From Candidatus Stoquefichus massiliensis AP9 (lineage in GTDB: Bacteria; Bacillota_I; Bacilli_A; Erysipelotrichales; Coprobacillaceae): a stretch of 33,623 nt of DNA. The notes below the pieces were generated by a model. The model was given only the letters and a program-made list of their open reading frames with translations, made no database searches and was not told the DNA's origin. This document shows positions 752 through 4,398 of this stretch, one piece after another. The number at the start of each line of letters is the position of its first letter. Position 1 is the first letter of the stretch. A program made the position numbers and the translations under genes. Location: NCBI RefSeq assembly GCF_000455285.1, contig NZ_HG005288.1, forward strand, positions 113,147 to 146,769. The letters are read 5' to 3'.

Positions 752-1270
752 TTATTCAATAAATTCTCCATAATCATTTATCTTTTGTATACTCACACAT
801 TTTTCTTTTAAAGAAGCTTGAATATTAATGATTCGTTGATTAGCTGATCCTTTATACAAAAGGCTTAAACTTCTTTGTCCAATCAGAAAACATCCATCAA
901 CCAACACATCACAAAGTGATAATAACTTTCTTTCATTTTCTCCTAAATCCAATATTTCCTCATAAGTATAGCCACTATAAATCATCAAATGTAAACCATG
1001 CTGCTTAATCCCTTTTGCAAGTTCAACCAATGCAACAGGCTGTAAAAATGGTTCTCCTCCAGAAATAGTTACTCCATCTAACAAAGGATTCTTTAAAATC
1101 TCAGCCATAATCACATCAGTATCTTCAAGATATCCCCCTTGTAAATCATGACTCTTAGGATTATGACATCCTGGACAGTGATGCAAACAGCCTTGAGTAA
1201 AAACCGAATATCTTAACCCTGGTCCATCAACAATAGAATCATTAACAGTTCCATATAATCTAATCTTCAT
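752..1270 (-). CDS. nrdG: Anaerobic ribonucleotide reductase activating protein
   Basis: Radical SAM activase of class III ribonucleotide reductase. It uses a [4Fe-4S] cluster and S-adenosylmethionine to install the glycyl radical on NrdD. The cluster motif is CX3CX2C at C28, C32 and C35, slightly compact as usual for NrdG. The SAM-contacting GGEP motif is at residues 71-74. At 172 residues it matches the family length. Its start overlaps the end of nrdD by 11 bases and has only a weak ribosome binding site, so translation is probably coupled to nrdD. This is a confident family call; it is cytoplasmic and should act only under anaerobic conditions. Confidence 0.95.
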   Translation of the reverse strand: MKIRLYGTVNDSIVDGPGLRYSVFTQGCLHHCPGCHNPKSHDLQGGYLEDTDVIMAEILKNPLLDGVTISGGEPFLQPVALVELAKGIKQHGLHLMIYSGYTYEEILDLGENERKLLSLCDVLVDGCFLIGQRSLSLLYKGSANQRIINIQASLKEKCVSIQKINDYGEFIE

Positions 1271-3566
1271 ATGTTAATCCATGTTTGACACGATCAGCTT
1301 CTTCAGCACGTTTGGCATCATTAAAACGATCTATTGTTCCAACCAGATAGCCAGTAATTCTTCTTATTCTTTCAAAGCCATCATGTTCACTTTCGCGACG
1401 TCCACACTTTGGACAAACATCATCAATAATACCATTATAGCCACAGACTGGATCTCTATCAACAGGATGATTAATAGCTCCATAGCCAATCTTGGCATCA
1501 TGCATAGCTCTTACAACTTTTTCAAAGGCAGGCAGATTCTTTGTAGGATCACCATCCATTTCAATATAACTAATATGCCCACCATTGGTCAAAGCATGAT
1601 AAGGACCTTCAATTTGAATTTTATCATATGCACTTATTTCATAATAAACGGGAACATGAAAACTGTTTGTATAATATTCACGATCTGTAATACCTTCAAT
1701 TTTCCCATAAATAGCACGATCCAATTTTACAAAACGACCAGACAATCCTTCAGCTGGCGTTGCAATTAAAGAAAAGTTCAACTTATATTTTTGTGCTGCT
1801 TCATCAACATGTTTACGCATGTGTGCAACAATCTGTAATCCTAAAACTTGAGCCTTTTCATTTTCACCATGATGATATCCAATCAATGATTTCAATGTTT
1901 CTGCTAAACCAATGAAACCAATTGTTAATGTCCCATGTTTTAAAACTTCTCTTACTTCATCTGTAGATTTTAATTTTTCTGAATCAATCCAAACTCCTTG
2001 TCCCATCAAAAATGGATAATTTCTAACATGTCTTTTACATTGAATCTCAAATCTTTCTAATAATTGATCAATACATAAATCAAGCATTTTATCTAATTTC
2101 TCAAAAAACTCATCGATATCACCTTTAGATTTTATAGCTAAACGTGGTAAATTTATAGAAGTAAAACTTAAATTACCTCTACCCGGACAAATCTCTCTAC
2201 TTGGATCAAAAACATTTCCAATAACTCTTGTTCTACACCCCATATAAGCAATCTCGGTTTCTGGTGTCCCTTTATAATACTGTAAGTTAAATGGAGCATC
2301 AACAAATGAGAAATTAGGAAATAAACGTTTTGCTGAAACTCGACAAGCTAATTTAAACAAATCATAATTAGGTTCACCTGCATTATAATTAATTCCTTCT
2401 TTAACTCTAAATATTTGTATTGGAAAGATTGGTGTTTCTCCTCCACCTAGACCGGCTTCTGTTGCCAATAAGACATTTCGAATAGCCATACGACCTTCTG
2501 GCGATGTATCCATACCATAATTAATAGAACTAAAAGGAACTTGAGCCCCTGCTCTTGAATTCATTGTATTTAAATTATGAATTAAAGCTTCCATTGCCTG
2601 ATATGTTTCTTTATCTGTTTCTTCATATGTTTCTTTAACAGTAAAAGTCTGTATCTTTTCAATAAGTTGTGTACTTATTCCAAAATCTTCAAGAATCAAT
2701 TTTTCTTTTTCTAGATATCCCTGATCTTCTAAAGATGGAAAAGGAATTATTGACTTTACTTTTATAAGAATATTTTCTACTGATAAATCTGTAAGTAATT
2801 CTAAAGTTTTCTTCAAATTTTTGTAATACCATTTCTTATATGATTTCTTAACACCCTCAGCCATACCATAATCAAAATTGACAATTGCCTGTCCACCATG
2901 CTGATCATTTTGATTAGATTGAATAGCTATACAAGTTAGAGCTGAATAAGTTGTAATACTATTAGGTTCTCTTAATACACCATGCCCAGTTGAAAAACCA
3001 TTCTTAAATAAATGAATGATATCTATTTGTGTACATGTTGTTGTTAATGTTAAAAAATCCATATCATGAATATGAATATCACCTGATTTATGAGCAGCAC
3101 TATGAAGCGGATTTAACACAAACATTTCATTAAATTGTTTTGCTGCTTCAGCACCATATTTTAGCATTGTTCCCATTGGAGCATCAGCATTCACATTTGC
3201 ATTTTCTCTCTTTAAATCACTATCTTTTGCATCCTGAAAAGTAATTTCTTCCATTGTTCTCATTAAACGTGACTTACGATCACGTGAACGTGTACGCTCA
3301 GCGCGATAAAGAATATAAGCTTTAGCAATTCTTACATAACCTTTTTCAATTAACGTTTCCTCAACAGTATCTTGAACCAATTCAACTGTTGGTAATTCTG
3401 TATGTCGCGCTTCTAACTTTCCTTCAACCTCTTTTGCAACTGCAATGGCTGTATCTAAATCATATTTTGCTTCTGTTGCTTGAAAAGCACGATAGATGGC
3501 TCCCGCTATCTTATTGACATCAAAATGATCCATACGACCATCTCTTTTTCTTATATACTCAATCAT
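1260..3566 (-). CDS. nrdD: Anaerobic (class III) ribonucleoside-triphosphate reductase
   Basis: Reduces ribonucleoside triphosphates to deoxyribonucleotides without oxygen, using a glycyl radical. The N-terminal ~90 residues are an ATP-cone for allosteric control. The catalytic barrel follows and includes the conserved YMGCRT stretch. At the C-terminus there is a cysteine cluster (C708, C718, C721) and the radical loop RRITGYL, with G739 as the likely radical glycine, followed by the usual RFN and RVKH elements. I see three rather than four cysteines in the cluster; an aspartate stands where the first of a CxxC pair could be. Start chosen from AGGAGG 6 nt upstream. It forms an operon with nrdG by overlap. 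Confidence 0.96.
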   Translation of the reverse strand: MIEYIRKRDGRMDHFDVNKIAGAIYRAFQATEAKYDLDTAIAVAKEVEGKLEARHTELPTVELVQDTVEETLIEKGYVRIAKAYILYRAERTRSRDRKSRLMRTMEEITFQDAKDSDLKRENANVNADAPMGTMLKYGAEAAKQFNEMFVLNPLHSAAHKSGDIHIHDMDFLTLTTTCTQIDIIHLFKNGFSTGHGVLREPNSITTYSALTCIAIQSNQNDQHGGQAIVNFDYGMAEGVKKSYKKWYYKNLKKTLELLTDLSVENILIKVKSIIPFPSLEDQGYLEKEKLILEDFGISTQLIEKIQTFTVKETYEETDKETYQAMEALIHNLNTMNSRAGAQVPFSSINYGMDTSPEGRMAIRNVLLATEAGLGGGETPIFPIQIFRVKEGINYNAGEPNYDLFKLACRVSAKRLFPNFSFVDAPFNLQYYKGTPETEIAYMGCRTRVIGNVFDPSREICPGRGNLSFTSINLPRLAIKSKGDIDEFFEKLDKMLDLCIDQLLERFEIQCKRHVRNYPFLMGQGVWIDSEKLKSTDEVREVLKHGTLTIGFIGLAETLKSLIGYHHGENEKAQVLGLQIVAHMRKHVDEAAQKYKLNFSLIATPAEGLSGRFVKLDRAIYGKIEGITDREYYTNSFHVPVYYEISAYDKIQIEGPYHALTNGGHISYIEMDGDPTKNLPAFEKVVRAMHDAKIGYGAINHPVDRDPVCGYNGIIDDVCPKCGRRESEHDGFERIRRITGYLVGTIDRFNDAKRAEEADRVKHGLTYED

Positions 3567-3619: not shown

Positions 3620-3644
3620 TTCATACGAATGATACAATAAGAAA

Positions 3645-3662
3645 AGATACTCGAAAGTATCT
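3645..3662 (-). terminator. Terminator of the HPr-like gene
   Basis: A 7-bp stem (arms 3645-3651 and 3656-3662) that on the minus strand has a UUCG tetraloop and is followed by a T-rich run. It ends the HPr-like transcript and separates it from nrdD. Confidence 0.75.
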
Positions 3663-3672
3663 CTCTTCTTTA

Positions 3673-3948
3673 TTATTCAATTGTTGAAATACCAAGTTCA
3701 TTAATCTTGTTTTTAATCGTTTCAATGGCTTGTCCTTCATCACCACCAGAAACAGTAATTTCTAGTTTAGCTTTCGTTGGAATACCTAAAGACAAAACAC
3801 CCATCATACTTTTTAAATTAACTTCCTTGTTACCATAACGTAATGTGACATCACTATGAAATTGCTTTACAGCATTAACAAGTTCTGTAGTAGGAGTTGC
3901 ATAGAGTCCAACTGGATCTGTCACTGTAAACTTTAAAATTTGAGCCAT
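3673..3948 (-). CDS. HPr/Crh-like protein lacking the PTS phosphorylation histidine
   Basis: A 91-residue HPr-fold protein. In HPr the sequence GLHARP carries the histidine that relays phosphate from enzyme I to PTS permeases. Here the same place reads GLYATP: the histidine is Tyr16 (codon TAT, checked on the DNA) and the supporting arginine is Thr18. In contrast the regulatory region VNLKSMMGVLSLGI is intact, with Ser47 in the place of HPr Ser46, the target of HPr kinase/phosphorylase. This is the pattern of Bacillus Crh, where histidine is glutamine. It should therefore be unable to carry PTS phosphate but might still serve as a CcpA corepressor when serine-phosphorylated. That role is inferred. 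Good ribosome binding site (GGGAGG) and its own terminator suggest a single-gene transcript. Confidence 0.85.
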   Translation of the reverse strand: MAQILKFTVTDPVGLYATPTTELVNAVKQFHSDVTLRYGNKEVNLKSMMGVLSLGIPTKAKLEITVSGGDEGQAIETIKNKINELGISTIE

Positions 3949-3978: not shown

Positions 3979-4008
3979 ATTATATCATAAACATATTCCA
4001 AGAGTTAA
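3979..4008 (-). promoter_or_regulatory. Candidate promoter of the HPr-like gene
   Basis: Minus-strand TTAACT (4003-4008), 18-bp spacer, and a perfect TATAAT (3979-3984) with TGA directly before it, 30 bases ahead of the start codon. Confidence 0.55.
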
Positions 4009-4032: not shown

Positions 4033-4398
4033 TTATTTCTTTCTTCTTCTATTTCTTTTCTTTGCATTTAATCCTTCTTCTATTTCATGATAATTAACAT
4101 ATCCTCCCAAATCATAAACATGGTAGCCTTTTTTGGCAATCTTTTTATATGCTCTTTCACTAATAGCTGGATTAATTGCATAAACATAATAAATCAAATC
4201 CTGTTCAGGATAATACTCTTCAAATTTATCCATTAATCTAAGTGGTAAACATTCAGCATCAGCAATATGCAAATTATCATAATCTTTCACTTCATCAGCA
4301 CAAATAATAACAATCTTATCAGGATTCTTTACATAACGACGATAACCCTCATTAATATCCAATTTCTTAATTTCTATTTTTTTACCAAATCCAAACAT
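4033..4398 (-). CDS. Rhodanese-like protein without catalytic cysteine
   Basis: A 121-residue protein whose pattern resembles a single rhodanese domain: a strand around IVIICAD, then LIYYVYAINPAISERAYKKI followed by GYHVYDLGGYVNYHE. In active sulfurtransferases the second strand leads to a cysteine starting a six-residue loop; here no cysteine is present there, so sulfur transfer is unlikely. The C-terminus is very basic (KKRNRRRKK), which could favour binding to RNA, DNA or membrane. The N-terminus MFGFGKK is similarly basic. It sits upstream of the HPr-like gene in the same direction, separated by 84 bases that contain a promoter, so joint function is not implied. The fold assignment is by pattern only. 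Confidence 0.55.
   Translation of the reverse strand: MFGFGKKIEIKKLDINEGYRRYVKNPDKIVIICADEVKDYDNLHIADAECLPLRLMDKFEEYYPEQDLIYYVYAINPAISERAYKKIAKKGYHVYDLGGYVNYHEIEEGLNAKKRNRRRKK

Follow-up and report, generated by a model that had tools for sequence, protein, structure and literature searches.

A second HPr with tyrosine at the acceptor position in Coprobacillaceae: a probable PTS-inert substrate of HPr kinase that resembles Crh

We describe an HPr paralogue, hereafter HPr-Y, in a 33,623-nucleotide stretch of the genome of Candidatus Stoquefichus massiliensis AP9 (the window). In HPr-Y the phosphorylated histidine is replaced by tyrosine and the target region of HPr kinase (HprK) is intact. To judge from its sequence, the protein is probably a regulatory-only, PTS-inert substrate of HprK that follows the logic of Crh, with CcpA co-effector the most likely role. 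Crh of the Bacillus type, in which His15 is absent and Ser46 intact, makes this a known regulatory design (PMC9631020, PMC3526391). Features of the window that bear on this reading are collected in Table 1.

Table 1. Features of the window around the HPr-Y gene
Feature	Position	Strand	Basis or remark
HPr-Y, HPr paralogue of 91 aa with GLYATP for GLHARP and intact Ser46 region	3673..3948	-	Profile matches, homologues, AlphaFold model
Tyr16 codon TAT, equivalent to phospho-acceptor His15 of B. subtilis HPr	3901..3903	-	
Ser47 codon AGT, equivalent to the HprK target Ser46	3808..3810	-	Ser in 34/34 Tyr homologues
Promoter-like TTAACT-18-TATAAT with TG before the -10 box, 5' of HPr-Y	3979..4008	-	Site count of the region no higher than in shuffles
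Terminator-like hairpin and T tract directly 3' of the HPr-Y stop	3638..3663	-	z of -1.9 alone; absent from the list of a stricter scan
Small conserved protein, weakly rhodanese-like, with basic C-terminus, upstream of HPr-Y	4033..4398	-	
nrdD, anaerobic ribonucleoside-triphosphate reductase (neighbor only)	1260..3566	-	Terminator and a leader of its own lie between it and HPr-Y
nrdG, NrdD activase (neighbor only)	752..1270	-	

The HPr-Y gene and its product

The HPr-Y open reading frame is preceded by a ribosome site, AAGGGAGG. Residues 14–19 of the product read GLYATP, with Thr18 in the place of the conserved arginine; residues 43–56 read VNLKSMMGVLSLGI, and the Ser46-type HprK region NLKSMMGVLSLGI is unbroken. 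An earlier note, made from the DNA alone, had claimed both the loss of the phosphorylated histidine and arginine and the integrity of the kinase target, and both readings stand. Membership in the HPr domain family is clear from Pfam PF00381 (77.8 bits, cut-off 23), and TIGR01003 is also passed (71.9 bits, cut-off 47.9). The NCBIfam HPr equivalog NF010352 is missed (88.4 bits, cut-off 110), and NF010354, which we take to be the Crh model, is matched far under its cut-off (53.6 bits against 123). Both His15 and the catalytic Arg17 that mark a PTS phosphocarrier are replaced. The solved structures closest by sequence are canonical Gram-positive HPrs, with Crh ranking lower, and an AlphaFold model (mean pLDDT 81) superimposes on the HPr of the CcpA complex (2fep_S; TM 0.93, rmsd 0.7) and of the HprK complex (1kkl_H; TM 0.91).

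Conservation across the Coprobacillaceae

Every one of the 43 family genomes encodes at least one HPr, and the Tyr paralogue is found in 34 of them, representing 15 of 20 genera. The tyrosine and the Ser46 equivalent are invariant in all 34 homologues. Since the position of Arg17 is occupied by T, S, A, G or K, with R in one case, conservation is stricter at the tyrosine than at the arginine. Among 26 representative rows of the alignment just 15 columns are invariant, including G14, L15, Y16, N44, K46, S47, M49, S53, L54 and G55, and the Ser46 region is the best conserved stretch of the protein. A dN/dS of 0.03 to 0.23 between close relatives shows that HPr-Y evolves under purifying selection and is no copy in decay. 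A misread TAT codon, which had been named as a way for the original reading to fail, is ruled out by the homologues, which use TAT (30) as well as TAC (4); the nearest genome, at 96% protein identity, has an identical GLYATP. That HPr-Y is a functionless, decaying duplicate of ptsH or a sequencing error has next to no chance of being right: the loss of catalytic residues speaks for it and nothing beyond, against the spread through these genomes and genera, the dN/dS values, and a -10 box and terminator that are conserved in two unrelated gene neighborhoods (see below).

Eight of the nine genomes that lack the Tyr paralogue represent five genera where it is missing from every member read; the ninth is an incomplete genome from a genus that does have it. 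One of the nine (L051) carries a second HPr copy that reads GLHANI.

Other departures from the canonical protein occur in the family. Beduini massiliensis (L039, G006:C5) has a third HPr with GMHAKS, in which His and Ser46 are kept and Arg17 is lost. A stand-alone HPr of a third kind, of about 85 aa, combines GxHARPAG with DLKKLL for the Ser46 region (L053, L054, L057, L061, L063, L065, also L044); most family genomes that hold it also hold a canonical HPr. Many family genomes further contain frames of 432–461 aa in which an HPr domain lies N-terminal to a D-2-hydroxyacid dehydrogenase (L080–L083, e.g., L081:1297-2601 on the + strand, where a Pfam scan gives PF00389 and PF02826). These fusions keep GxHARP and lack Ser46. 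The dehydrogenase could be tied to PTS phosphorylation in this way; to our knowledge, no protein with such an architecture has been described.

Partners elsewhere in the genome

Had HPr-Y been the only HPr in the genome, PTS function would have been in question, as the earlier note pointed out. That possibility is refuted: the 3.5 Mbp genome, which is 99% complete, contains exactly one further HPr, a canonical one with GLHARPAT and NLKSIMGVMSLGV on a different contig, and this protein is there to run the PTS together with a full-length enzyme I (EI; 762 bits). HprK, whose absence would have undone the original reading, is likewise present (209 bits; closest solved HprK, 1ko7), with an intact Walker A motif GDSGIGKS and the EIRGIGVIDV stretch, and was found in 42 of the 43 family genomes, the single miss being a genome that is 72% complete. 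The fourth component sought, CcpA, is represented by a LacI-family protein (L084), which we regard as the orthologue because CcpA structures are its best matches in the PDB (E about 1e-59) and because it has the binding motif: its HPr-binding helix reads PVYDMGALAVRLLTK, compared with PMYDIGAVAMRLLTK in B. megaterium, and Tyr295, Asp296, Arg303 and Lys307 are kept. NCBIfam TIGR01481 alone does not make this assignment (best match 259, under the cut-off of 442). As canonical HPr, EI, HprK and CcpA are all encoded, the parts needed for Ser-P signaling are complete and the function of the PTS is in no doubt.

A proposed role in Ser-P signaling

EI phosphorylates HPr on His15, and Arg17 contributes to the binding of HPr by CcpA. 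Arg17 is also among the main EI contacts of HPr (PMC8509676), and His15, when unphosphorylated, takes a direct part in the binding of CcpA (PMC3526391). HprK targets Ser46, and both P-Ser-HPr and P-Ser-Crh bind CcpA (PMC9631020, PMC3526391). Against this background HPr-Y would be HPr-like in fold but, with tyrosine for the acceptor histidine and in most cases no catalytic Arg17, unable to accept a phosphoryl group from EI. Its Ser46 equivalent would be phosphorylated by HprK, a sensor of glycolytic flux; and because HPr-Y would have no competing His-P form, the level of its Ser-P form would follow glycolytic flux only, independently of transport through the PTS. By analogy with Crh, P-Ser-HPr-Y would then most likely assist CcpA as a further co-effector, alongside canonical HPr. 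The analysis establishes the conserved sequence, the selection on it, the transcription signals, the co-occurring partners and the predicted fold; from these we infer the phosphorylation on serine and the binding of CcpA, and from the lost residues the loss of PTS activity.

The step to CcpA is the one most exposed to doubt: because His15 is absent and Arg17 usually so, HPr-Y may bind CcpA weakly, or may have a different protein as its true partner. An HprK substrate aimed at an enzyme or transporter and not at CcpA is accordingly a rival reading, for which a precedent exists in the inhibition of methylglyoxal synthase (MgsA) by unphosphorylated Crh in B. subtilis (PMC9631020). We consider it rather unlikely. 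In its favor, the two lost residues both lie on the CcpA-facing side of HPr, and HPr-Y is present in every one of the 19 family genomes with mgsA, versus 15 of the 24 without. By genus, however, the association with mgsA is weak (7 of 7 versus 8 of 13) and not independent of descent, and MgsA, the Crh target that does not involve CcpA, is discarded as a general target, mgsA being absent from 15 of the 34 HPr-Y genomes.

A different relationship to CcpA could be read from position 69, where B. megaterium CcpA has Asp, presumably a partner of HPr Arg17. This position is Gln in the CcpA of the genome itself and in 18 of the 20 family relatives read (L084, L291–L310), and Glu or Asp, mostly Glu, in the sister family; the family proteins keep Asp or Glu at position 99 and most of the 295–307 helix. 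Conceivably the tyrosine is a working residue, HPr-Y and CcpA changed together (Asp69 to Gln), and P-Ser-HPr-Y sets a separate CcpA program, possibly gated by Tyr-P, but this we hold to be quite unlikely. Strict covariation is not supported, and the occurrence of Gln69 alongside HPr-Y is at most a family-level coincidence, readable either way, because family genomes without HPr-Y also have Gln69.

Retention of the HPr fold and of part of helix 1 would also suit a brake on the PTS, that is, a protein that docks on EI or EIIA, carries no phosphate and competes with canonical HPr. Such a brake is very unlikely: docking should be weakened by the loss, in nearly all members, of Arg17 as a main EI contact (PMC8509676), and a brake would not require the Ser46 region to be invariant, whereas no stretch of HPr-Y is better conserved.

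Origin and relationship to Crh

The question whether the Tyr form is a clade had been left to a tree of HPr homologues. In a focused tree of 44 rows the Tyr forms do make up one clade (93/96), beside the canonical HPr of the Coprobacillaceae (94/84), with Crh placed inside the Bacillaceae (98/99). A constraint that unites the Tyr clade with Crh is rejected in this tree (AU p=0.0152) and not rejected in a quick tree of 88 rows (p=0.56), and with an alignment of about 89 columns the evidence is moderate. We favor an origin of HPr-Y from a duplicate of the family's ptsH, independently of Crh. The earlier suggestion of an independent Crh-type protein is thus likely to be right, a separate origin being favored by the focused tree while the quick one leaves room for a common clade.

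HPr-Y shares with Crh its status as an extra HPr beside a normal one, the replacement of the acceptor histidine, the intact Ser46 region, and the co-occurrence with HprK and CcpA. In contrast to HPr-Y, with its Tyr and lost Arg17, the Bacillaceae references for Crh have Gln at position 15 and keep Arg17 (GLQARP). The Crh gene follows rapZ-yvcK-whiA, whereas HPr-Y lies on a contig other than that of the genome's rapZ-whiA, after which comes a small HTH gene and no HPr. The canonical Coprobacillaceae HPr, the nearest group in the tree, has the same fold and Ser46 region, but it carries GLHARP and is far more conserved, while HPr-Y carries GLYxxP and falls under the equivalog cut-off. In all likelihood, then, HPr-Y works like Crh, and it probably stands outside the Crh lineage.

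Distribution beyond the family

A strict DNA pattern (GGN-HTN-TAY, 27 codons, N-x-K-S-x-M) was used to scan about 85,000 species. Among the matches listed, 28 are true HPrs, of which 26 belong to Coprobacillaceae and the other two to the Bacillaceae genera Ectobacillus (GIYARP) and Neobacillus (GLYPRL); the remaining 52 are not HPr. Across 315 genomes of the order, D-N-N-class non-His HPrs occur only in Coprobacillaceae, the four outside matches not being HPr, and in 395 genomes of the class none of the matches that a looser pattern gave in other families reads as an HPr, as judged on the first 80 bases. The strict pattern is blind to some Tyr forms of HPr: that of Neobacillus cucumis (GFYAQP, with NVKS) was missed by it and found by a family search. 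A literature search of open-access papers found no published description of a Tyr HPr paralogue in Erysipelotrichia.

The Bacillaceae paralogues (Neobacillus, L165 and L256; Ectobacillus, L164) resemble HPr-Y in having the tyrosine, Ser46 and other HPrs in the genome. Unlike HPr-Y they are placed among the HPrs of the Bacillaceae, so that the tyrosine had a separate origin there. With a third Bacillaceae case having escaped the strict pattern, the change from His to Tyr is recurrent, and tyrosine at the acceptor position has arisen at least two times, probably three. The two Neobacillus forms (Neobacillus sp., L165; N. cucumis, L256) occur alongside Crh and form a strongly supported clade of their own. 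The genome of Ectobacillus funiculus (G315) has 16 HPr-domain loci, which include both GIYARP and a Crh with GLQARP.

Recurrence at the same place, together with a tyrosine that is invariant while the arginine two positions on drifts, raises the idea that the tyrosine is itself phosphorylated, for example by a bacterial tyrosine kinase, and that HPr-Y is a two-input switch responding to Tyr-P and Ser-P. We regard this as highly improbable. A single C-to-T transition turns His into Tyr, so the recurrence may reflect mutation only, and an aromatic side chain could equally serve packing or a partner surface.

Gene setting and transcription signals

HPr-Y occurs in two settings that differ by branch. 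In the window and in Longibaculum and Stoquefichus the order is [small rhodanese-like gene]-HPrY-nrdD-nrdG, and Massilimicrobiota has HPrY-nrdD-nrdG with another gene upstream; in Thomasclavelia and Faecalibacillus the order is [rRNA methylase]-HPrY-mraY-murD. The small upstream protein, which adjoins HPr-Y in 8 loci from 7 genera, was assigned no Pfam family, and a relative of it (L052) matches PF00581 at an E-value of 0.0054, under the cut-off. A -10 box precedes HPr-Y at 30 of the 34 homologous loci (6.6 expected), and a terminator-like element lies within 75 nt of the stop at 32 of 34 (3.2 expected). In view of the two settings and of these signals we discarded HPr-Y as an operon partner of nrdDG or of mraY-murD. 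The gene is probably a single-gene unit whose neighbors are not co-regulated with it, and they are therefore poor guides to its function. In Bacillus, Crh lies close to yvcK/glmR, the gene of a cell-wall regulator; because a terminator follows HPr-Y, we give its adjacency to mraY-murD little weight.

Implications

The label 'HPr family phosphocarrier protein', which HPr-Y would earn by its match to the family model, would misstate its function. If HPr-Y and CcpA did change together, these gut bacteria would possess a second, lineage-specific route of catabolite control. The natural variation at Arg17 within the clade lets one ask which residues of HPr are needed by HprK and which by CcpA. If our preferred reading of HPr-Y as a PTS-inert HprK substrate is true, a histidine-less HPr has evolved more than once in the Firmicutes, with different residues in the acceptor position, which suggests that a PTS-free signal of glycolytic flux is worth having. 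Common gut bacteria, among them Thomasclavelia, Faecalibacillus, Longibaculum, Sharpea and Kandleria, would then have in HPr-Y a defined regulator of their sugar preference.
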